Origin: Nitratireductor aquibiodomus NL21 = JCM 21793
GTDB taxonomy: Bacteria > Pseudomonadota > Alphaproteobacteria > Rhizobiales > Rhizobiaceae
DNA length: 64,000 bases
NCBI RefSeq assembly: GCF_000615975.1
Contig: NZ_BAMP01000004.1
Coordinates: 1-64,000, forward strand
Direction of reading: 5' to 3'
This document shows positions 19,250 through 44,082 of the stretch, in pieces (the first letter of the stretch is position 1; each line of letters begins with the position of its first letter). The notes under the pieces were generated by a model. That model worked only from the letters and a program-made list of their open reading frames with translations, was not told the DNA's origin and made no database searches. Both the position numbers and the translations under genes were made by a program.

Positions 19250-19899
19250 CACGGCCTCCAGCGAAGGAAATTGGCGATCAGGGCCAGGCCAAGCGCCTGG
19301 CTCTTTTCCGGGTGGAACTGCGTGCCCACCAGATTGTCCCGCGCGACCGTTGCGGTGATCGGGCCGCCATAGTCAGCGGCGGCGAGAATCTCGGCCTCGT
19401 TGCGCGCGGCGAGGTGATAGGAATGCACGAAATAGGCGTGCAGGCCGTCGGCTCCGGTGGGGATGCCGTCAAAGATCGGGTGCGAATGTTTCACGTGAAT
19501 CGTGTTCCAGCCGATCTGCGGGATCTTCAGTTTCGGGTCGGACGGGGTCATCTCGACCACATCTCCGGCAATCCAGCCGAGCCCTTCCGTGACCGTCTTC
19601 TCCAGCCCGCGTTCGCTCATGAGCTGCATACCGACGCAGATGCCGAGAAAGGGCCGTGCCTGATGGATGGCGACATCCGTGATCGCCTCGACCATGCCCG
19701 GCACCGCATCGAGCCCCCGCCGGCAGTCGGCATAGGCACCCACGCCCGGTAGAACGACGCGGTCCGCAGTGCGGACGGCATCGGCATCCGCCGTCACGGC
19801 GATCTCGGCCGTGATGCCGTTTTCACGTGCAGCACGCTCGAAGGCCTTTGCGGCCGAGCGCAGATTGCCCGAACCGTAATCGATGATCGCAACCTTCAT
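19249..19899 (-). CDS. hisH: Imidazole glycerol phosphate synthase glutaminase subunit
   Basis: A 216-residue class I glutamine amidotransferase that supplies ammonia to HisF. The nucleophile Cys lies in [11 protein letters not shown], and the catalytic His-Glu pair in TQFHPEKSQ. It starts [15 protein letters not shown]; the longer upstream frame runs through the DUF2628 gene and is not used. A parS-like sequence lies within its coding region. Confidence 0.97.
19487..19502. other. parS-like 16-mer inside hisH
   Basis: TGTTTCACGTGAATCG matches 14 of 16 positions of the parS consensus TGTTTCACGTGAAACA. It is 13 kb from the probable origin and inside a coding sequence, so it may be chance. Confidence 0.3.
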
Positions 19900-28296: not shown

Positions 28297-28455
28297 CACT
28301 TATAATTTAGATCGTCCTTTGTGCGTCCGGATGGACGCACGGCGATCCAGGGGCTACCCCGCCGCGCCTTGTCATGCGCCGAAGCCCATGCTAGCGAGCA
28401 GGCAAATCTTAAAGGGGAGCCGCGCGGCTGCCAAACCACGCTCGAGGAAAAACGC

Positions 28456-30418: not shown

Positions 30419-31247
30419 GACGCGTCCCCACCCGCGAGCACATGATCCCGCAGTGCGCCCGTTACCACCGGCCGGACACCGAACCAGCGCTCGAAGCCGG
30501 GCACGGCCTGATGCAGCAACATGCCGAGGCCATCAACCGGTGTGAGCCCCCGGGCCTCGGCGGCGGCGAGAAGATCCGTCTTGAGCGGGGCATAGACAAT
30601 GTCGCTGACAATTGCGTGCCCGGGCAGGGGATCGAGCGAGATTTCCAGCGGCGGCTGGCCGGTCATGCCGAGCGCGCTCGTGTTGACCAGAAGATCGGCA
30701 TTGCCGAGGAGCGCGGCAGATCCTCCCAGCCATGAGCGCTGACGCCAGTGCCGAAACGCACCGCCAATTCCTGCGCGCGCGCAAGCGTGCGGTTGACCAC
30801 GCGTATATTTTTATAGCCGGCTTTTTGAATGGCATGGATGATGGCCCGCGCCGCGCCGCCGGCGCCGAGGACAACCGCCGTTTCACCACTGGTCCAGTCT
30901 GGAGCACCGGCGCTCAAATGTGCGGCAAAACCGTAGGCATCCGTGTTTCCGCCAATCAGTTTGCCGGATTCAAACCACAGCGTGTTGACTGCGCCGATCA
31001 TCTCCGCCGCTTCATCACGCCGGTGAACCGCGGCAAAGGCCGCTTCCTTGTGGGGCAGCGTGACATTGCCGCCAGCGTATCCGGTAGCTGGCAAATCACC
31101 AAGAAAGGCGTCGAAATCGAGTGGGGCGACGTCCAGCTTTTCATAGCTGCCGTCGATGCCATGCTCGGCAAGCCAGAACCCGTGAATGAGCGGCGAACGG
31201 GAATGGGCGATCGGGTGCCCGCAGACGAAAGCGCGAATCTCAGCCAT
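30415..31247 (-). CDS. aroE: Shikimate dehydrogenase, frameshifted in this sequence
   Basis: AroE reduces 3-dehydroshikimate with NADPH in the aromatic amino acid pathway. It starts [20 protein letters not shown], carries [11 protein letters not shown] with the catalytic Lys, and the NADP loop [12 protein letters not shown] near residue 125. At about 30714 the frame breaks: ctgccgcgctc where ctgccggcgctc would give [19 protein letters not shown]. The second frame then continues [10 protein letters not shown] to the end. Repaired length is 277 residues. The start overlaps the maf stop. Confidence 0.92.
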
Positions 31248-31849: not shown

Positions 31850-32700
31850 TCACCCTCTGTTTTCTCGTGCCTTCGCATACAATGCGAGAATGGCCGCTGC
31901 GGTTTCCTCGATGGAGCGGCGGGTTACGTCGATTACCGGCCAGCCATGGCGTGTGCAGAGCTGGCGCGCATAAGCGATCTCGCGGGAGATCGTCACACGG
32001 TCGGTATAGGGGTTGAAGGCGTTTTCATCCACCGATCCCAGAATCCGGTTCTGGCGAATCTGCGAAATGCGTTCGGCGGAGGCGACCAGTCCGACAATCA
32101 GGGGCCTTTTCGCCAGGGCGAGCGCTTCCGGCAGTTTCATGTCCAGCACGATAGGCACGTTTGCGGTCTTCACACCACGATTGGCCAGATAGATGCTAGT
32201 CGGCGTCTTGGACGTGCGGGATATGCCGACGAGGATGACATCCGCTTCCTCGACATCGAGCGGAAGCTGACCGTCGTCATGCTCCATGGTGAAATTGAGC
32301 GCTCGATGCGGTGAAAATACTGCGCATCCAGCACATGCTGCGCGCCGACCCGACGGCCGGCGGGCGTGCCCAGATAAGACTGGAAGACCATCAGAACGGG
32401 TTCGAGCACCGACACGCAGGGCAGGCCGAGCGCGGCGCAGCTTTCATCCACCTGACGGGCAAGCTTTTGGTCCACCACCGTATAAAGCACGATGCCGGGT
32501 TCGCGCTCCACCTCATCAAGCACACGAGCGAGCTGCTTCTCATTTCGAATCAGCGGGTAGATGTGCTCGATCGCCCGCGCGTCCTTGTATTGCGCGGCTG
32601 CGGCGCGTCCTGCGGCCAGGAGAGTCTCGCCGGTCGCATCAGAAATCATGTGAAGATGGAAGAAGCGCTGCGGCTGTTGCACGGATTTTTGCCCCGCCAT
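31850..32700 (-). CDS. ppsR: PPDK/PEP synthase regulatory kinase-phosphorylase (DUF299, RP001 homologue), frameshifted
   Basis: A bifunctional serine/threonine kinase-pyrophosphorylase family protein that switches pyruvate phosphate dikinase or PEP synthase on and off using ADP and phosphate. [14 protein letters not shown] lies near the N-terminus and the P-loop-like [15 protein letters not shown] near residue 155. At about 32302 one G is missing (gagcgctc for gaggcgctc), breaking [15 protein letters not shown]; repair gives 283 residues. It is the homologue of RP001, the gene that flanks the Caulobacter origin opposite hemE. The start ATG at 32700 adjoins the origin region. Confidence 0.9.
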
Positions 32701-33081
32701 GTGGATGCCTGTTGATAACGCGGGCCCGAAAAAATGGCGAGGCCGCACCCTTTGATAACTCCACCCGTTCTTCCACAGACAGGCCTCGTGTGAATTCCAA
32801 TCCTCCCATGTGGAGAACAATCGACAATCCCCGAACCTTCCTTCACTGTCCACTGGGCGAGGTCAACCGAAATCACTACAGCCTATTGAATCTGCGCGCT
32901 GAATCCGCATTATCCCCGTTCTTCTGAAGGTGTGCATTTCTGCGAGGCGCGGCAATAAGACCGGGCTCGCGATGCGCAAAACCGTGGACAGATTTGAATC
33001 CACATTACAAACAGAGTCTAAGAATCAGAAGAATCTTCAGATCTGTAATTATCTTTTGAATCCTGACTGTGGAGCAGCCTG
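32701..33081. other. Probable chromosomal replication origin (oriC) between ppsR and hemE
   Basis: This 381-base gap has no convincing ORF and separates leftward (ppsR, maf, aroE, coaE, dnaQ) from rightward genes (hemE, hemJ, rho), the same order that flanks oriC in Caulobacter and rhizobia. DnaA-box-like 9-mers (consensus TGTGGATAA) include TGTTGATAA at 32710 and TGTGGAGAA at 32809, both 8 of 9, and weaker 7-of-9 matches at 32700, 32769, 32910, 32996 and 33068. GANTC sites start at 32888, 32901, 32996, 33014, 33022, 33031 and 33058. The last 80 bases are AT-rich, a candidate unwinding element that overlaps the hemE promoter region. Confidence 0.8.
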
Positions 33082-34107
33082 ATGGGGCAGCGAAAAATCC
33101 TTGATGTGCTTAGAGGCGAGACGGTGTTTCCGCCTCCCGTCTGGATGATGCGCCAGGCCGGACGATATCTGCCGGAATACCGGGAGGTCCGGAAACAGGC
33201 AGGGAGTTTTCTAGATCTCTGCTACAACCCGGATCTGGCAGTGGAAGTGACATTGCAGCCGATCCGTCGTTTCGGATTTGATGCATCGATCCTCTTTTCC
33301 GACATTCTCGTCGTGCCGCATGCGCTCGGCCGCGATCTGCGCTTTGAGGAGGGCAGAGGTCCGCTTCTGACGCCAATCGATGCGAGCGGTATCGCAAAAC
33401 TTGAGACATCCGGTTTTCACGATCATCTGGCGCCGGTCTACGAAACGGTGCGGCGGCTTCGCAGGGAGCTTCCCGATGAAACGACACTGCTCGGGTTCTG
33501 CGGAGCGCCCTGGACGGTAGCGACCTACATGATTGCAGGGCATGGCACGCCGGACCAGGTACCGGCCCGCATGTTTGCGCTTGAGCAGCCGGAGGCCTTT
33601 TCCGCGCTGATCGACTGCCTTGCAGACTGTTCCGCCGATTATCTGATCCGCCAGATCGACGCCGGCGCTGATGCGGTGCAGATTTTCGATTCCTGGGCGG
33701 GCGTTCTCGACGAGCTGTCTTTCGAGCGGTGGTGCGTGAAGCCGGTGGCGCGGATGGTGGCGAAGGTGCGGGAAAAGCACCCCGACACACCGATAATCGG
33801 CTTTCCGAAGGGTGCAGGCGCGCTTTACGCGGGCTATCGTCGGGAGACGGGCGTGACGGCACTCGGGCTCGACTGGACGGTTCCTCTGGGCACAGCGCGC
33901 CGCCTGCAGGCCGAGGGAGCGGTTCAGGGCAATCTGGACCCTCTGAGGCTGATTGCCGGCGGAGAGGCGCTCCACGAGGGCGTGGACGCGATTGTGGAGG
34001 CACTGCGGCATGGGCCGTTCATCTTCAACCTTGGCCACGGCATTACGCCGAAGACGCCGGTTGAGCATGTGGAAGCGATGCTGAAACGGATTCGGGAGGC
34101 CGGCTGA
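33082..34107 (+). CDS. hemE: Uroporphyrinogen decarboxylase
   Basis: A 341-residue HemE that converts uroporphyrinogen III to coproporphyrinogen III in heme synthesis. The signatures [17 protein letters not shown] (residues 18-34) and [13 protein letters not shown] (near 135) are clear, as is FNLGHGITP near the C-terminus. The start is [12 protein letters not shown] with TGTGGAGCAG upstream, which is both a ribosome binding site and part of a DnaA-box-like sequence. It is the first rightward gene from the probable origin and overlaps hemJ by one base (TGATG). Confidence 0.97.
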
Positions 34108-36163: not shown

Positions 36164-38191
36164 TTACCATGATTTCCGTGTGGTGCCGTCGCGCAGGGCG
36201 GCTTCGAGCTCTTCCGGCTTCAGGAACGGTGGCAGGCATGTCTGCCCAATACAGAGATACGCAGCCTGCCGCTGAGGATCGATCGTTACACCGTCCGGTA
36301 GGTTCTGTGTGCTGCCATTGACCATGACAACATCAAACCGACTGGGATCCAGGTTTCGATTCGCTACCGGAACAAAAACAGGCTCCTTCGTCGGCTCGAC
36401 CATGAGCAGTTTGGCAGCGTTCTGAGCCAGTGCCGCCGCATAGACAATGCCGGCTTGGCCATAAGTCTGTGTGGTTGCGCGGCCGAGCGCTGCCTGCGCG
36501 ACTTCCGCTACCCGATTGTCCGGATCGTCCCCGGAGAGCACTGAAAGCGTCAACAGAGCTTCGATGACCTGGCTCGTGGCAGACGGTATGGCCTCGTCCA
36601 CGTCGCCGCGTATGCGCATGGGGACATCGGACGCGTCGCTCGCGGTCAGGTAATGTCCGGTTTCGCTTTTGTCCGAGTACCAGGTATGGAGTTCGCGCGC
36701 CCAGGCATGTGCCTGATCGATTAGGGAAGGCTCGGCAGTTGCCTGATAAAGCGCGCCGGCGGCGGAAATCATGCACGCATAGTCGCTCGAAAGACCGGGG
36801 AACACCGCTTTGCCGTTGCGAGAACTGTGTGGAAGGCGGCCCTCCTTCATCGATTCGCATACGAAACGAAAAGCCCCGCGCGCTGCCTCCAGCCAGTCGG
36901 GCCGATTGAGCAATCGCGCTGCATCGGCGAGAGCTGCAATCGTGAGCCCATTCCAGTCCGTCAAAACCTTGTCGTCGCGTCCGGGCTGATCCCGCTCGTT
37001 TCTTATCGAGAGAAGCGTGTCCAGCAGGGCGCGCAGCTCTGCTTCCTTCAGATCGCCGAGATAGCGCGCGTGGCCGCGGCGGTGAAGTATCGGTTTTCCT
37101 TCCCAGTTCTCAGGCTGTGCCAGCGAGAAGATTTCGAGAAAGCCATCCGCTCCGCTATCGAGCGCGCTGCGTATCTGCGCTTCCGTCCAGAGATAGGTCT
37201 GTCCTTCAACCCCGGCGGTGTCGGCATCGAGGCTGGATGCAAAGGCACCACCTGCAACCCTCATTTCGCGGAGAAGCCAACTCACCGTCTCTTCGATTCG
37301 TACCCGAAACAATGCATCGCGTGTGTCACTGTAGATCCAACACAACATGCGCAGAAGCTGGGCGTTGTCATACAGCATCTTTTCAAAATGCGGGACGAGC
37401 CAGTTGTCGTCAGTGGAGTAGCGTGCAAGGCCGCCACCCACATGATCGTAGATGCCGCCGGCCAGCATTGAAGTCATACTTTGCACTACGGCGGTCCTGT
37501 GCGCCGGGTCATCGCTTAACCAGAGGACACGCATGAAGGGGACATTTGGAAATTTTGGCGCTCCGCGAAGACCGCCAGCCTTGTGATCGATCATACCATG
37601 GATGTTGCCGGCCAGAGTCTGGAGAACCTCCTGCGGCGACCCAGCATCACCCGGTGCCGGAGCGAGACGGGTTTCCACGTGGGCGCCAAGTGCACCTGCG
37701 CTCCTGACAAGTTCGGCGCGTTTGCCCTGCCAGGCCGCATTCACGGCCTCGAGCACCTGAAGAAATCCTGGACGCCCGTATCGCTGCTCTGGCGGAAAGT
37801 AGGTCCCACCCCAGAAGGGCTGCCCGTCGAAGTCCAGAAACATGGTTAGAGGCCAGCCGCCCTGTTCGCCCATGGCGGAGAGCGCGGCCATGTAGATCTG
37901 ATCGATCTCCGGCCGCTCCTCCCGATCGACCTTTATGTTGACGAAATAGCGGTTCATCGCTGCGGCGATTTCCGGGTTCTCGAAAGACTCGTGCGCCATC
38001 ACGTGACACCAGTGGCAGGCGGCGTAGCCGACCGAGAGGAGGATGGGCCTTTCGCTCTCTCTCGCCTCGCTCAGGGCCTCTGCCGACCACGGCCTCCAGT
38101 GAACCGGGTTGTTCCGGTGCTGAAGCAGATAGGGGCTTGTCTCGGAAGCCAGAAGATTTTTTGCAGGCAGCGGCATTGGGGCTCCTTGCAC
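36164..38191 (-). CDS. Thioredoxin-domain protein, YyaL/DUF255 family
   Basis: A 675-residue protein of the YyaL/Spermatogenesis-associated 20 family. The N-terminal DUF255 thioredoxin-like domain (residues 1-165) starts NLLASETSPYLLQHRNNPVHW and contains CHWC in GYAACHWCHVMAHESF. The rest is an (alpha/alpha)6 barrel-like glycoside-hydrolase-type fold (GGIYDHVGGGLARYSTD and DGLTIAALADAARLL-like segments). The biochemical function is not settled. The first Met is at 38191, and MPLPAKNLLAS five codons later is equally possible. It is transcribed toward rho and away from mnmE. Confidence 0.88.
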   Translation of the reverse strand: MQGAPMPLPAKNLLASETSPYLLQHRNNPVHWRPWSAEALSEARESERPILLSVGYAACHWCHVMAHESFENPEIAAAMNRYFVNIKVDREERPEIDQIYMAALSAMGEQGGWPLTMFLDFDGQPFWGGTYFPPEQRYGRPGFLQVLEAVNAAWQGKRAELVRSAGALGAHVETRLAPAPGDAGSPQEVLQTLAGNIHGMIDHKAGGLRGAPKFPNVPFMRVLWLSDDPAHRTAVVQSMTSMLAGGIYDHVGGGLARYSTDDNWLVPHFEKMLYDNAQLLRMLCWIYSDTRDALFRVRIEETVSWLLREMRVAGGAFASSLDADTAGVEGQTYLWTEAQIRSALDSGADGFLEIFSLAQPENWEGKPILHRRGHARYLGDLKEAELRALLDTLLSIRNERDQPGRDDKVLTDWNGLTIAALADAARLLNRPDWLEAARGAFRFVCESMKEGRLPHSSRNGKAVFPGLSSDYACMISAAGALYQATAEPSLIDQAHAWARELHTWYSDKSETGHYLTASDASDVPMRIRGDVDEAIPSATSQVIEALLTLSVLSGDDPDNRVAEVAQAALGRATTQTYGQAGIVYAAALAQNAAKLLMVEPTKEPVFVPVANRNLDPSRFDVVMVNGSTQNLPDGVTIDPQRQAAYLCIGQTCLPPFLKPEELEAALRDGTTRKSW

Positions 38192-38273: not shown

Positions 38274-39587
38274 ATGAGAGAAACCATATTCGCACTTTCC
38301 AGCGGCGCTTTGCCGTCGGGCGTCGCTGTTGTGCGATTGTCGGGTCCCGGTACCTGCTCCGCGCTCGAAGCTCTGGCAGGAAAACTGCCGGAACCGCGCC
38401 ATGCGACGCTGCGAACATTGCGGGACAGCCGGGGCGCTATTCTCGATCGATCTCTTGTCCTCTTCTTTCCAGGCCCACAGAGCTTTACGGGGGAAGACTG
38501 TGGCGAACTCCATCTCCATGGCGGGCGGGCTGTTGTGCAGGCCGTTCTAGAGACGCTTTCAGGCTATCCCGATTTTCGCCTTGCCGAGGCGGGCGAGTTC
38601 ACGCGACGTGCCTTTCTGAATGGAAAGTTGGATCTCACGGAGGCCGAAGCGCTCTCCGACCTCATTTCTGCGGAAACCGAGGCGCAACGCCGTTTTGCTC
38701 TCGCAAATGCGGAAAGCCGGCACAGGGCCCTTTATGATGGATGGCGAAAGACACTCATCCACGCGCGGGCAATGATCGAGGCGGAACTCGATTTCTCGGA
38801 TGAAGAAGACGTTCCAGGCTCTGTTGCCGAACGCGTCTGGGAGGAGATTGCCGAGCTACGGAGCTCGCTTGAATGTCACGCGGCCGGGTACCGCACTGCC
38901 GAGATCATCCGCGAAGGGTTTCGCGTGGTGATCCTTGGGGCGCCGAATGCCGGGAAGTCGAGCCTTTTGAACATGCTGGCCCGCCGGGACATCGCCATCG
39001 TGACTGAAGAGCCCGGGACGACACGCGATGTTCTCGAGGCTGTGCTGGATGTAGGCGGGGTCAAGGTAATCGTGACGGACACAGCGGGCATTCGTGAGAA
39101 CCCCGGGAGGGTCGAGGCGCTGGGGATTGACCGTGCGATTGATCGCGCCCGGGAGGCTGACATCATTCTTCTCCTTGAAGACTGCAATGCGCCTGTCAGG
39201 GTTCGGCTACCGGAAGGCATTCCGCATCGACGGATAGGCAACAAGCTCGACCTTGCAGAAAGGTCACTCCATCAGGGGCAATACGACTTTCTAATCTCAG
39301 CCCATACGGGTGAGGGCATCGACGATCTTCTAAGCGAGGTGCGCGAACTCGCCGTGCAGGCAACGTCCAATGCCGGTGAAGCACTTCCTTTCCGTGAGCG
39401 GCATGTGCAGCTCATCCTGGATGCGGCGAGACACGTGGATACCGCGGCGGCACAAACCAGCCTCCCGCTAGAAGTCCGGGCGGAGGAGTTGCGGCTTGCA
39501 GGCGAAGCGCTTGGGCGAATAAGCGGAACGATCGACGTCGAAGATCTTCTGGACACCATTTTTTCGCAGTTCTGCATTGGAAAATGA
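38274..39587 (+). CDS. mnmE: tRNA modification GTPase MnmE (TrmE)
   Basis: A 437-residue GTPase that with MnmG installs the cmnm5 group on wobble uridine of tRNAs. The N-terminal folate-binding part starts MRETIFALSSGALPSGVAVV, the GTPase domain has G1 GAPNAGKSS near residue 220, G3 DTAGIRE and G4 NKLD, and the protein ends with the catalytic FCIGK. I chose the ATG at 38274; an in-frame TTG at 38253 would add seven residues. The stop codon overlaps the first parS-like site. Confidence 0.96.
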   Translation: MRETIFALSSGALPSGVAVVRLSGPGTCSALEALAGKLPEPRHATLRTLRDSRGAILDRSLVLFFPGPQSFTGEDCGELHLHGGRAVVQAVLETLSGYPDFRLAEAGEFTRRAFLNGKLDLTEAEALSDLISAETEAQRRFALANAESRHRALYDGWRKTLIHARAMIEAELDFSDEEDVPGSVAERVWEEIAELRSSLECHAAGYRTAEIIREGFRVVILGAPNAGKSSLLNMLARRDIAIVTEEPGTTRDVLEAVLDVGGVKVIVTDTAGIRENPGRVEALGIDRAIDRAREADIILLLEDCNAPVRVRLPEGIPHRRIGNKLDLAERSLHQGQYDFLISAHTGEGIDDLLSEVRELAVQATSNAGEALPFRERHVQLILDAARHVDTAAAQTSLPLEVRAEELRLAGEALGRISGTIDVEDLLDTIFSQFCIGK

Positions 39588-39600
39588 CTCACGTGAAACA
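39585..39600. other. parS-like site 1
   Basis: TGACTCACGTGAAACA matches 14 of 16 positions of the parS consensus TGTTTCACGTGAAACA. It starts at the mnmE stop codon. Confidence 0.75.
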
Positions 39601-39620
39601 CTGTCTACTTGATTGATGCG

Positions 39621-39636
39621 TGACTCACGTGAAACA
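39621..39636. other. parS-like site 2
   Basis: TGACTCACGTGAAACA, an exact repeat of site 1 placed 36 bases downstream in the mnmE-mnmG gap. Confidence 0.75.
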
Positions 39637-39667
39637 CAGACTTCGGATCCGGATGCGTACGCAACAA

Positions 39668-39683
39668 TGTTTCACGTGAAACC
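39668..39683. other. parS site 3
   Basis: TGTTTCACGTGAAACC matches 15 of 16 positions of the parS consensus. It lies 47 bases from site 2 in the same intergenic gap. Confidence 0.88.
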
Positions 39684-39811
39684 GACAGAGCCTCGCAAAT
39701 CCCTTGACTGCTTCTTCAGAAAAAGACATGTCTGACGCTCTCCAATCCCCGCGAAGTATCGGGCTTCCATAGCATCTCTCCACGCTGTGAAGGCATCGAT
39801 GGAATCGGATC

Positions 39812-41683
39812 ATGAAGAACAGTAGCTACGATGTAATTGTTATCGGCGGTGGCCACGCCGGCGTTGAAGCCGCTTCCGCTTCCGCGCGATCCGGTGCCAG
39901 AACGGCGCTGGTCACGCTTCGTTTCGATACCGTTGGTGTGATGTCCTGCAATCCAGCAATCGGGGGCCTGGGCAAGGGACATCTGGTACGGGAGGTGGAT
40001 GCGCTGGATGGTGTTATGGGTCGTGCTGCGGATGCGGCGGGTATCCAGTTTCGGCTCCTCAATCGGCGCAAGGGTCCAGCAGTGCGGGGACCGCGCACGC
40101 AGGCCGACCGCAAGCTCTACCGGAATGCGGTGCAAAGTGCGATCAGGGCCGTGCCTAACCTCGAAGTGATTGAAGGGGAGGCGCTGGAGCTGCGCATCAG
40201 TGAGGGCCGCATCGCTGGAGTTGTGGTCTCCGGGGAGCGCCATCTGTCCTGCGGCTCCGTTGTGCTGACAACCGGGACCTTTTTGCGCGGCCTCATTCAT
40301 ATTGGGGAGAAGACGATCCCGGCGGGCCGTATGAACGAACAGGCGGCCGAGCGGCTTTCGATTTCAATGGAAGCGGCGGGCTTTCGCCTGGGGCGACTGA
40401 AGACGGGGACGCCGCCACGTCTCGACGGCCGTACGATTGACTGGGCTTCGCTGGACATGCAGCCAGCGGACGACGACCCGACACCCTTTTCCCTACTGAC
40501 GGATCAGATTACCAACCGCCAGATCGAATGCGGCATCACACGCACCACCAGCGAAACGCATGCTGTGATCCGCCAGCATCTGCATCGCTCCGCCATGTAT
40601 TCCGGCGCGATAGATGGAATCGGGCCACGCTATTGCCCTTCGATTGAAGACAAAATCGTCAAGTTCGGAGATCGCGAGGGCCATCAGATTTTTCTCGAGC
40701 CGGAAGGTCTCGACGATCATACGGTCTATCCGAACGGTATCTCCACTTCGCTTCCTGAAGATGCGCAACTCGGGCTTCTGAAGACCATCCCCGGGCTTGA
40801 GCGGGCAGTGATGCTGCAGCCAGGCTATGCGATCGAATATGACCATGTCGATCCGCGTGATCTTGAGCCGACGCTCGAGACGCGCAAGGTTCGCGGTCTT
40901 TTTCTCGCTGGGCAGATTAACGGAACGACTGGATATGAAGAAGCAGCGGCGCAGGGCATTCTGGCTGGAATCAACGCGGCTCGCGCGGCTTCGGGTAGCG
41001 AGATGGTGATACTGGGCCGTGCTGACGCCTATATCGGCGTTCTGATTGACGATCTGGTTACGCGGGGTGTGAGCGAGCCGTACCGCATGTTCACATCGCG
41101 GGCGGAATATCGGCTTTCGCTGCGTGCCGATAATGCCGATATGAGGCTGACACCGCTTGCCGTTCGGCTGGGCATCGCATCGGCGGAACGGGAGAAGCGG
41201 TTTAGCGCGATGGAGCGTTCGCTTGAGGCTGCGCGCTCGCTGCTCAAAGACAGGGCTCTGAGCCCGAATGAAGCGGCCCGGCATAATATCAATCTCAACA
41301 GGGATGGGGTTCGCCGTTCTGCTTATGAGCTCTTATCCTATCCTGATATGGACATAAGCCGGCTTATTAACATCTGGCCGGAGCTGTCCGAGATTCCGTC
41401 CGGTCTGGTTGAAAAGATTGAAACGGAAGCACGCTATGCCGTTTATCTGGAGCGTCAGGGCAATGACGCTGCCATGCTGCGGCGCGAGGAAGCGCGCCTT
41501 ATTCCTGCTGAGCTGGCGTTTGACGGGATTGCAGGACTCTCAAACGAATTGAAGCAGAAGCTGAAGGACCGGCGACCGCGAAGCATCGCCGATGCCCAAA
41601 GGATTGATGGAATGACGCCCGCCGCTTTGGCTTTGATTATCGCAAGTCTGCGCCAGTTCGAGACACAGAAGGGCGCTGCCTGA
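39812..41683 (+). CDS. mnmG: tRNA uridine-5-carboxymethylaminomethyl modification enzyme MnmG (GidA)
   Basis: A 623-residue FAD enzyme, partner of MnmE. The dinucleotide-binding motif is [17 protein letters not shown] near the start, followed by [22 protein letters not shown] (partly quoted) and [16 protein letters not shown] near residue 370. The C-terminal helical domain binds MnmE and tRNA. The ATG at 39812 lies after the parS sites. It overlaps rsmG by one base (TGATG). Confidence 0.97.
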
Positions 41684-42315
41684 TGGATTCAGCGCGGTTT
41701 TCTCGGCTTTTGGAGATTTCAGGGCCGGTTTCACGTGAAACATTTGATCGTCTGGCTGCATTTGAGGGGATTTTTCGGCGCTGGTCACGACGAATCAATT
41801 TGGCCGCCCCATCGACGCTGAACGATCTCTGGGAGCGTCATATTCTTGACAGCGCCCAATTGCTGCGTCTCGCACCCGATGCGCTAAAGTGGCTCGACGT
41901 GGGATCTGGTGGGGGATTTCCCGGTGCCGTTATGGCCATTCTTCTGGCTGAGAAGTCGGGCGCCGAGGTGCATCTCGTTGAGAGCAATCGGAAAAAGGCG
42001 GCGTTTCTGGTGTCTGCTCTGAATGAAGTGGGTGTTGCGCCCCGGATCCATGCAAGGCGGATCGAAGACACATATGATGCGATTGGTACGCCAGACATCG
42101 TTACAGCGCGTGCGCTCGCGCCTTTGCCGCTTCTTATCGAACTTACGGAGCCCTGGCTGACGCAGGGCGCACGGGCGCTCTTTCACAAAGGACGGGATTA
42201 CCGCAGGGAAGTGGAAGAAAGCGGTAACACGTGGCGATTCGATCTGGTAGAACATGAAGATAAGGTTGATGCGGCAGCCATCATTCTTGAAGTGAGCAAT
42301 CCGCTCCGGCGATAG
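41683..42315 (+). CDS. rsmG: 16S rRNA (guanine-527-N7) methyltransferase RsmG (GidB)
   Basis: A 210-residue SAM-dependent methyltransferase of 16S rRNA G527. The SAM site is [17 protein letters not shown] near residue 70. Its N-terminal coding part carries a parS-like site whose reading (VSRETFD) is a conserved feature of alphaproteobacterial GidB proteins, so both the protein and the site may constrain the same bases. It lies between mnmG and parA in the classic gid-par order. Confidence 0.96.
41727..41742. other. parS site 4, inside rsmG
   Basis: GGTTTCACGTGAAACA matches 15 of 16 positions of the parS consensus. It lies 45 bases into rsmG and encodes part of VSRET. Confidence 0.85.
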
Positions 42316-42366: not shown

Positions 42367-43155
42367 ATGAACAGCGGCACGCGAATCATCACAGTCGCAA
42401 ACCAGAAGGGCGGGGTCGGCAAAACGACAACGGCCATCAATCTCGCTACGGCGCTCGCTGCCATTGGCGAGAATGTTCTCGTGGTCGATCTGGATCCGCA
42501 GGGTAATGCCAGTACCGGGCTTGGCATCGACCGTCAGCAACGACTTGTTTCGTCCTATGATGTTCTGACGGGCAATGCGGGTGTTCTGGAAGCGGCCATG
42601 GCAACGGCGGTTCCCGGGCTTTCCATCGTGGCATCTACGCTCGATCTTCTCGGCATCGAAATGGAAATTTCGAGTGCACCGGATCGCGTTCTAAAGTTGC
42701 GTAACGCCTTGAATGAAGACGGTATTCCGTATTCATACGTGCTGGTGGACTGCCCACCTTCACTGAACCTTCTGACCTTGAACGCAATGGCAGCGGCGGA
42801 TTCGATCCTTGTGCCGCTGCAATGCGAATTCTTCGCCCTTGAAGGTCTCAGCCAGCTTCTGGAAACGGTGGAGCAGGTGCGCGGCTCGATCAATCCGCAT
42901 CTGGGTATTCAGGGCATCGTGCTGACCATGTTCGACCGGCGCAACAATCTGGCCAATCAGGTGGTTGAGGATGTCCGCGCGCATATGGGCGACACGGTCT
43001 ATGAGACGATTATCCCGCGCAATGTGCGCGTTTCGGAAGCGCCATCCTACGGAAAGCCGGCGATTCTCTACGATCTGAAATGCTCCGGCAGCCAGGCCTA
43101 TTTGCAGCTTGCGTCGGAGGTGATTCGCCGCGAGCGCCGACTGCGGGCGGCATGA
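42367..43155 (+). CDS. parA: ParA chromosome partitioning ATPase
   Basis: A 262-residue Walker-type ATPase that drives origin segregation with ParB. The deviant Walker A is VANQKGGVGKTTTAINLA near the N-terminus, followed by VVDLDPQGNASTGLGI, and the DNA-binding part ends at RERRLRAA. It lacks the long N-terminal extension of plasmid ParA/RepA proteins, which fits the chromosomal type. It lies 58 bases before parB. Confidence 0.97.
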   Translation: MNSGTRIITVANQKGGVGKTTTAINLATALAAIGENVLVVDLDPQGNASTGLGIDRQQRLVSSYDVLTGNAGVLEAAMATAVPGLSIVASTLDLLGIEMEISSAPDRVLKLRNALNEDGIPYSYVLVDCPPSLNLLTLNAMAAADSILVPLQCEFFALEGLSQLLETVEQVRGSINPHLGIQGIVLTMFDRRNNLANQVVEDVRAHMGDTVYETIIPRNVRVSEAPSYGKPAILYDLKCSGSQAYLQLASEVIRRERRLRAA

Positions 43156-43212: not shown

Positions 43213-44082
43213 ATGAACGAAGATCCCTCACGCAAGCGCCTGGGGCGCGGTCTCGCCGCGTTGATCGGTGAGATGGACAAGCCGGAAACCGAGCAGAAAG
43301 AGGCGGTGCGTGCCGATCGTTCTGTTCCAATCGAGTTTATTTCTCCCAATCCGCGCAATCCGCGTCGGCAGTTCGTCGAGAGCGATCTGAGCGATCTGGC
43401 GCAGTCCATTCGCGAGCATGGAATCGTGCAGCCCGTGGTCGTGCGCTCGGGCGACGCGCCGGGCCGCTTTGAAATCATCGCCGGTGAACGGCGGTGGCGT
43501 GCGGCACAGCGGGCCGGTTTGACGGAAGTGCCGGTGATCCTGCGGGAAGTGGATGACAAGGCCGCGCTGGAACTCGCCATCATCGAGAACGTCCAGCGTG
43601 CCGATCTCAACCCGCTTGAAGAAGCGCGGGGCTATCAGCAGCTTATCGATGAGCACAATTACACGCAGGCCGATCTGGGGCAGGTCATCGGCAAGAGCCG
43701 AAGCCATGTAGCCAATACATTGCGGCTTCTGAAGCTGCCGGACGCGATTGGCGATCTGATCATTGACGGTTCCCTGTCGGCGGGTCATGCGCGCACACTG
43801 GTTACGGCGGAAGATCCCGTTGGTCTCGCGCAGCGTATCGTCGAGGATGGTCTTTCGGTGCGCCAGGCAGAAGCTCTGGCCGCTGCGCCACGCGGTGAGG
43901 AAAAAGCGCCGCGGCCGCCCAAGAAGGAAAAAGACGCCGATACGCTGGCGCTGCAGAAGCTTCTCAGCGATCGCACTGGCCTCAACGTCGTGATCAATCA
44001 CAAGGAGCGTGGCGGCGAATTGAAGATCGCCTATCGCTCTCTTGAGCAGCTCGACGAACTGTGCCGGCTTTTGCAGCAGTAG
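43213..44082 (+). CDS. parB: ParB chromosome partitioning CTPase
   Basis: A 289-residue ParB that binds parS and spreads as a CTP-dependent clamp. The N-terminus RKRLGRGLAALIGEMD binds ParA, the CTP motif is GERRWRAAQRAGL near residue 92, then ENVQRADLNPLEEARGYQQL, and the HTH region is TQADLGQVIGKSRSHVANTLRLL (quoted in part). The C-terminal end ELCRLLQQ is the dimerisation part. The parS sites in mnmE-mnmG and rsmG are its likely targets. Confidence 0.97.
   Translation: MNEDPSRKRLGRGLAALIGEMDKPETEQKEAVRADRSVPIEFISPNPRNPRRQFVESDLSDLAQSIREHGIVQPVVVRSGDAPGRFEIIAGERRWRAAQRAGLTEVPVILREVDDKAALELAIIENVQRADLNPLEEARGYQQLIDEHNYTQADLGQVIGKSRSHVANTLRLLKLPDAIGDLIIDGSLSAGHARTLVTAEDPVGLAQRIVEDGLSVRQAEALAAAPRGEEKAPRPPKKEKDADTLALQKLLSDRTGLNVVINHKERGGELKIAYRSLEQLDELCRLLQQ

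Follow-up and report, generated by a model that had tools for sequence, protein, structure and literature searches.

The window analysed comprises bases 1–64,000 of a 107,366-bp contig from the draft genome of Nitratireductor aquibiodomus NL21 (4.51 Mb, 207 contigs, 86.6% complete). Around the middle of this window, two genes point away from each other across an intergenic gap of 380 bp (32702–33081). The left-hand neighbour, ppsR (COG1806/DUF299, Kinase-PPPase by Pfam), lies on the reverse strand with its start codon at 32699–32701; only its N-terminal part was recognised (32290–32701), and its frame is broken near 32300–32390. The right-hand neighbour, hemE (33082–34107, forward strand), encodes uroporphyrinogen decarboxylase (URO-D by Pfam), and its product is 93% identical to the HemE of a MAG titled uncultured Nitratireductor (L118), the closest titled record. 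Further Pfam domains comprise RNase_T (dnaQ), CoaE and Maf on the reverse strand and UPF0093 (hemJ) and Rho on the forward strand; MnmE and MnmG were also identified in the region. The gene order dnaQ–coaE–maf–aroE–ppsR–gap–hemE, as given in the original prediction, is borne out by Pfam, with aroE, which fell outside the Pfam scan, named from open reading frames alone. The accompanying claim that the flanking genes diverge from the gap is correct for the nearest genes but not further out, where the outward orientation is broken by a secB-like ORF at 28321 (+) and a thioredoxin-like ORF at 36164–38191 (−), both named by eye. No RNA family reached its gathering score between 26000 and 40000.

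Both aroE (near 30717) and ppsR change frame in this assembly, and 14 of the 85 genes mapped from the congeneric genome G002 are split into two or more pieces on the contig; sequencing indel errors seem likelier than true gene loss.

A putative partitioning locus lies 6.5–11 kb from the gap. It consists of four parS-like centromere sites (39585–41742, by motif scan), three of them at the mnmE end and in the gap after mnmE and one inside the start of an rsmG-like ORF, together with a parA-like ORF (42367–43155) and a parB-like ORF (43213–44082), both named from the ORF by eye. A fifth parS-like site occurs at 19487; five sites were reached in 0 of 100 shuffles.

The gap contains seven sites that match the DnaA box in at least seven of nine positions. 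At the ppsR end, a DnaA-like box at 32700–32708 (−, 7/9), which shares bases with the ppsR start codon, is followed by TTATCAACA at 32710–32718 (−, 8/9), by the main box, TCTTCCACA, at 32769–32777 (+, 7/9), and by TTCTCCACA at 32809–32817 (−, 8/9). Three weak DnaA-like sites, each 7/9, extend towards hemE: TTATCCCCG at 32910–32918 (+); GAATCCACA at 32996–33004 (+), which overlaps a GANTC site; and TGCTCCACA at 33068–33076 (−), immediately 5′ of hemE. The two 8/9 boxes that had been predicted are those at 32710 and 32809, and the 'several' 7/9 boxes amount to five; the perfect box, TTATCCACA, is absent from the gap.

To score this clustering, boxes were weighted 4, 2 or 1 for zero, one or two mismatches in 380-bp windows. 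The gap scores 8, against a mean of 0.60 for 5350 windows of the 107-kb contig. Only four windows of the contig reach 8, every one of them overlapping the gap, and none of 2000 dinucleotide-shuffled versions of the gap does so; by both comparisons, the cluster is not a product of chance. The original prediction had raised the possibility of a second locus with more complete boxes. No such locus turned up in this contig, nor in the DNA sampled from the congeners G008 (19,620 windows) and G004 (22,894 windows), where no window reaches the score of the genome's own origin; among 31,392 windows sampled from G002, one does, sharing about 120 bp with the origin gap. The region directly upstream of dnaA, which holds the best 380-bp window in 20 kb around this gene in the N. 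aquibiodomus genome, scores 7 as against 8. Perfect boxes proved useless as a guide to the origin, because they are rare genome-wide and none lies in the gap: the N. aquibiodomus genome has 3 copies of TTATCCACA versus 25 of the reversed control pattern, and the box is likewise scarce in five of six relatives, though little so in G035 (29 versus 36).

The half of the gap next to hemE has a different character. A probable DNA unwinding element occupies 33003–33062: only one 60-bp locus of the contig is less stable, and with windows of 50 and 100 bp this stretch ranks third and second, respectively. The predicted AT-rich stretch adjoining hemE is thereby confirmed. Within this unstable stretch, at 33011–33024 (+), lies a conserved element with the consensus ACMGASTCWWAGAA and the local form ACAGAGTCTAAGAA, including a GANTC at 33014. 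This is one of five GANTC (CcrM) sites (32996, 33014, 33022, 33031 and 33058) that form a cluster at 32996–33062, where GANTC density over 100 bp is the highest in the contig. With two others, at 32888 and 32901, the gap has seven in all, a number reached in 11 of 2000 shuffles.

Several other origin motifs were sought. The gap has no CtrA site of the form TTAA-N7-TTAA and wholly lacks TTAA; with two mismatches allowed, the CtrA pattern gives four entries at two places, a result equalled in 119 of 300 shuffles. The Caulobacter W-box TCCCCA does not occur in the gap, and the Caulobacter G-box has one 8/9 match, a level reached by 19 of 300 shuffles. No match to the IHF consensus WATCAANNNNTTR with up to one mismatch is present in the gap; the site printed for Cori in the excerpt of PMC4285127 itself differs from this consensus. 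The DnaA-trio/BUS type of origin, taken as a box with at most two mismatches, a spacer of 0–16 and at least three trios on the proper strand (rule from an excerpt of PMC8287927, strand by our own reading), has no match in 32681–33081. A dif site, sought by pattern at up to three mismatches, was found in none of six genomes. Nor is the gap extremely conserved at close range: 32854–33081 is 86% identical to G002, which ranks only 12th of 34 intergenic stretches.

The divergent ppsR–hemE arrangement is kept in 24 of 30 loci from the genus and family (own locus included; the best 30 of 59 matching genomes), in 74 of the 81 loci of a second set (80 fetched plus the own locus), in 15 of 19 loci from other families of the order (19 of 23 with a match), and in 25 of 29 loci from the class (the 29 best-matching of 55 further genomes). 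All 80 fetched loci of the second set presumably belong to one family, the Rhizobiaceae in the GTDB sense; the family records include Notoacmeibacter, Flavimaribacter, Limoniibacter and Aminobacter. The first and second sets have at least four loci in common and several rows are near-duplicates, so that rows are not independent. Gap length over the 74 loci has a median of 389 bp and falls within 366–408 bp in 68. In Caulobacter (404 bp) and Rickettsia (383–396 bp), the origin also lies between hemE and COG1806, according to the excerpt of PMC1914354; with the gene order kept in relatives and the Caulobacter precedent, the predicted equivalence to the Caulobacter and rhizobial oriC neighbourhood holds.

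Two peculiarities of the records were encountered. The LacPavin MAG (L136 and L262) has two hemE genes, one at the origin and one elsewhere, which may reflect either a duplication or a mixed bin. Record L154, titled Bacillus subtilis SK6B4, contains a Rhizobiaceae-like ppsR–gap–hemE locus; its label is therefore doubtful, and the record is probably mislabelled or contaminated.

Conservation of the individual boxes in the 74 rows is uneven. The main box (32769) is the best kept of all, with at most two mismatches in 71 rows and at most one in 66; elsewhere, it mostly takes the forms TTGTCCACA, TTTTCCACA, TCATCCACA and TTATCCACA. Up to two mismatches were also found for the boxes at 32700 (46 rows) and 32710 (47 rows), although, with only 10 bp between the two places and a permitted shift of 4, one box may have been counted twice in some rows, for the box at 32809 (49 rows) and for the site at 32910 (27 rows). 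The site at 32996 is kept in the ten same-genus rows and in 5 of the 74 rows of the wider set, and the site at 33068 is conserved within the genus but not beyond (8 of 74). For comparison, 127 control positions gave a mean of 3.8 rows and a maximum of 46, the latter at a position that may touch boxes absent from the gap studied here.

As the genome is a 207-contig draft, whole-replicon GC skew was sampled in relatives, namely in 20 stretches of 20 kb in each of G002, G008 and G004, which belong to the same genus and have chromosome-size contigs. Replichores were delimited by the orthologous gap and by the far sign change, the latter placed by the data. The expected sign was found in 58 of 60 stretches (G002 19/20, G008 19/20, G004 20/20), the exceptions being −0.0061 and −0.0012 (G008); one G004 stretch near the far border has a skew of +0.0001, and the ppsR side of G004 shows weak skew. 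The far changes sit where a balanced circle predicts them: beyond 3.44 Mb but short of the contig start in G002 (computed opposite point 3.62 Mb), at 2.425–2.590 Mb in G008 (2.50 Mb) and at about 2.28–2.47 Mb in G004 (2.30 Mb). The octamers GGGNAGGG, which we take to be KOPS, switch strand at the same places as the skew in all three genomes, with forward/reverse counts on the two sides of 4/27 and 23/5 (G002), 1/23 and 32/5 (G008), and 9/17 and 33/12 (G004); two stretches on the ppsR side of G004 carry them on the wrong strand.

At higher resolution, the cumulative skew minimum of a 280-kb contiguous piece of G002 falls at 1,720,016; the gap (1,720,281–1,720,660) is 265 bp away. The minimum of G004 is at 376,759, 147 bp from the gap, and that of G035 at 3,104,322, within the gap beside the hemE start; in G031, about 1.4 kb separate it from the start of hemE. 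For the contig studied here, a minimum at 32.7–33.1 kb had been anticipated; it was found at 31,021, 1.7 kb from the gap. Minima in contiguous DNA thus lie no more than 1.8 kb from the gap or the hemE start in five of seven genomes, but the profiles of the other two deviate: in G024, the minimum is 17 kb from the gap, and in 80 kb of Pseudaminobacter G257 none coincides with the gap.

The position of the gap, its box cluster, the unstable stretch, the skew change and the conserved layout are all directly visible in these data. Synteny, box cluster, unstable stretch and skew together uphold the central claim of the original prediction, a chromosomal origin between ppsR and hemE: with very little doubt, 32702–33081 is a DnaA-dependent origin of the main chromosome, of the hemE/COG1806 type. 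The strand switch of the octamers, the parS-like sites and parAB-like ORFs nearby and the narrow range of gap lengths also count in its favour. From this layout we infer DnaA binding, a place of opening and origin activity at the gap. DnaA would bind to the TTATCCACA-like boxes in the half of the gap next to ppsR, then extend across the weak sites toward hemE and open the A+T-rich 60 bp adjoining this gene, and two forks would depart in opposite directions, matching the GC skew. The conserved element would perhaps be a protein-contact or strand-opening site, with its GANTC methylated by CcrM.

In principle, the gap could instead merely contain the divergent promoters of ppsR and hemE, its DnaA sites being transcriptional and the true origin lying elsewhere, for example at dnaA. 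The gap must indeed contain the promoters of two genes; one perfect TTATCCACA, of which the gap has none, precedes the DnaA AAA+ domain at the near-equal distance of about 1150–1157 bp in N. aquibiodomus, G002, G004 and G008, and the box score before dnaA comes close to that of the gap. Against this stands the skew. In the three chromosome-size contigs, dnaA is 325–376 kb from the gap (328 kb in G002, 325 kb in G008, 376 kb in G004), and the sampled stretches between gap and dnaA carry the skew sign of a replichore started at the gap, save for the value of −0.0012 in G008; the skew minima, in turn, sit at or near the gap in five of the seven genomes. An origin at dnaA is rejected on the skew, and a promoter-only role for the gap is extremely improbable.

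The longest highly conserved run of the 74-locus alignment falls in the hemE-side part of the gap. The 14-base element ACMGASTCWWAGAA, whose consensus holds GASTC, i.e. a GANTC (CcrM) site, is exact in 69 of the 74 gaps from which that consensus was itself derived, and present with at most two mismatches in 73, L177 having four. Among 695 control windows from the same loci, there were no exact matches, none at one mismatch and four at two. Of 151 family genomes, 97 have a 20-base form of the element with up to one mismatch (99 matches in all, versus 3 for the reversed control); it stands directly before hemE in 16 of the 17 matching genomes in which the place of hemE is known, the match in G010 being on another contig. 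A 17-base form with one mismatch is nonspecific when used alone (9 matches versus 10 for the control in six genomes). Outside the family, none of the 29 class loci (Caulobacter not necessarily among them) contains ACMGASTCWWAGAA at up to two mismatches; among the 19 order loci, L248 (one mismatch) and L245 and L249 (three each) have it at an approximately homologous place, and four further three-mismatch matches lie elsewhere. Six sequence forms of the element had no match in the literature searched, and no paper describing such an element surfaced there; as that literature covers few subscription papers on rhizobial origins, the element may already be in print.

The relation of this element to the origin is complicated by its proximity to hemE. 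It could be a promoter or leader element of the hemE–hemJ–rho unit, perhaps controlled by CcrM and GcrA, and lie outside the origin. In most loci it is found 65–81 bp 5′ of the hemE start, and over all rows its spacing scatters no more with respect to hemE (median absolute deviation 5.5 bp) than to the main box (11.0 bp); seven rows with a deviant element–box distance are taken as cases in which another box was picked. In every case seen, it lies upstream of hemE or hemJ, never standing without hemE, hemJ or rho, and genes for GcrA and for a CcrM-type protein with a RAMA domain are present. Three natural experiments lean the other way. In Pseudaminobacter soli (L144, L265), hemE has relocated and now neighbours a 5-aminolevulinate synthase-like gene (named from the ORF), and the 500 bp upstream of its new place (mostly coding) contain no GANTC and a single 7/9 box. 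The old place retains ppsR, a perfect DnaA box, an 8/9 box, four GANTC and the element (one mismatch), 244 bp from the DnaA box; it now faces hemJ, so that even here the element is still ahead of hemJ and rho. Four drafts without a ppsR match (G259–G262, corresponding to L165, L188, L168 and L173: Aurantimonas, Aureimonas and two draft bins; whole drafts searched with the N-terminal 137 residues at E 0.001) keep the element before hemE, exact or with one mismatch in its 17-base form. Finally, extra DNA in 6 of 72 measurable rows places the element 105–433 bp from hemE while its distance to the main box stays at 242 or 256–258 bp, although three of these six are Brucella/Ochrobactrum and their independence is not assured.

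Other observations also count against a promoter element. The forward strand between 32600 and 33200 has no sigma-70-like promoter (E. coli-type consensus only), while the reverse strand has one, with a chance mean of 0.4; the GcrA motif YGAKTCK, described for Caulobacter in the excerpt of PMC8725594 and possibly variable between species, does not occur in the gap; and no stretch of the gap is less stable than the one that holds the element. Judged by sequence comparison, the element is probably part of the origin. Since the spacing statistics as a whole favour neither side, the promoter reading keeps the weight of a serious, if less than even, possibility.

GANTC sites are enriched well beyond the element itself. 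Over the 74 loci, they number 10.9 per kb in the gap and 2.4 per kb in the flanks (4.5-fold), whereas control motifs of equal composition give ratios of 0.8- to 3.6-fold. Between −120 and −30 of hemE, the 74 loci contain 188 GANTC versus 22.3 expected from shuffles, with at least one in 72 loci; as the rows are related, this count does not represent 74 independent cases. The number differs between lineages, with a mean of 3.12 in 34 Phyllobacteriaceae-type loci (own locus included) and of 1.47 in 19 loci of the Rhizobium/Agrobacterium/Ensifer type, in a grouping of our own by record titles that leaves out 21 of the 74 rows. GANTC is also denser within about 10 kb of the origin in G002, G004 and the contig studied here; among seven controls, CANTG is slightly up. 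All six genomes searched encode a RAMA-domain protein, which we infer to be CcrM, and GcrA, the latter in two pieces on two contigs in N. aquibiodomus. The features of a CcrM-methylated origin, seven GANTC in the gap and a RAMA-domain gene, are therefore present.

This abundance could be a by-product of a general rise of GANTC in intergenic DNA or around ori, with no role in the origin, and the odds of this are only a little short of even. According to the excerpts consulted, GANTC is over-represented in intergenic regions (PMC3973325) and rises around ori in four alphaproteobacterial orders (PMC9836097). Two control motifs, CTNAG (3.6-fold) and AGNCT (2.7-fold), are also raised in the gap, and gaps of the Rhizobium/Agrobacterium type carry just one to three GANTC. 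What such a general rise accommodates less easily is the excess over shuffles in a 90-bp stretch of the related loci and the fixed place at which the element's own GANTC is kept. A more ambitious reading, which we consider unlikely, is that the unwinding element, with its fixed ACMGASTCWWAGAA and GANTC array, acts in this family as a CcrM-methylation-sensitive timer resembling Dam/SeqA. Methylation by CcrM would change how the unwinding element melts or how DnaA, or an unknown protein, binds, and a half-methylated new origin would fire less readily before CcrM acts on it as the cycle ends. The case for such a timer would be strongest for Mesorhizobium/Brucella/Nitratireductor-like lineages, where the GANTC array is spaced 8–10 bp. 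An older view held that methylation is needed and lowers duplex stability (PMC2865523, excerpt). Results from Caulobacter and Agrobacterium argue against a strong effect: as far as the excerpts of these papers go, initiation control in Caulobacter is normal without CcrM (PMC3973325), and depletion or excess of CcrM in Agrobacterium changed ori2 but not visibly ori1 (PMC11514494). A methylation switch at the present origin is thus possible only as a lineage-specific effect. These negative results do not come from dense-array lineages; the two Agrobacterium gaps examined contain one or two GANTC in the counted stretch.

For this 207-contig draft, the origin call fixes base zero and the fork directions. 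The hemE–ppsR synteny of origins was already known and is ordinary for the group; it is now confirmed with skew data. The comparison adds something beyond this: the unwinding region has a 14-base element that 69 of 74 loci, spread over many genera, carry without mismatch and whose consensus includes a CcrM site. This element offers a precise target for the old question of whether CcrM methylation affects initiation at the main origin of Rhizobiaceae.

Caulobacter Cori resembles the present locus in its flanking genes, similar length, imperfect DnaA sites, A+T-rich stretch and GANTC sites (excerpts of PMC1914354 and PMC3973325). It differs in having five CtrA sites (PMC4468827, excerpt), whereas the gap described here has none and is devoid of TTAA, and in its W-boxes and G-boxes, of which only the single 8/9 G-box match has a counterpart here. 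Origins of Mesorhizobium, Brucella/Ochrobactrum, Phyllobacterium, Rhizobium and Agrobacterium share gene order, gap length, main box and element; these close relatives differ among themselves in GANTC number, as the Phyllobacteriaceae-type and Rhizobium/Agrobacterium/Ensifer-type means show. In the oriC of E. coli, GATC sites overlap the unwinding 13-mers. The clustering of methylation sites (Dam GATC) in that origin, as described in the excerpt of PMC4285127, is a further likeness, but E. coli uses Dam and GATC together with SeqA, whereas the enzyme and motif here are CcrM and GANTC.
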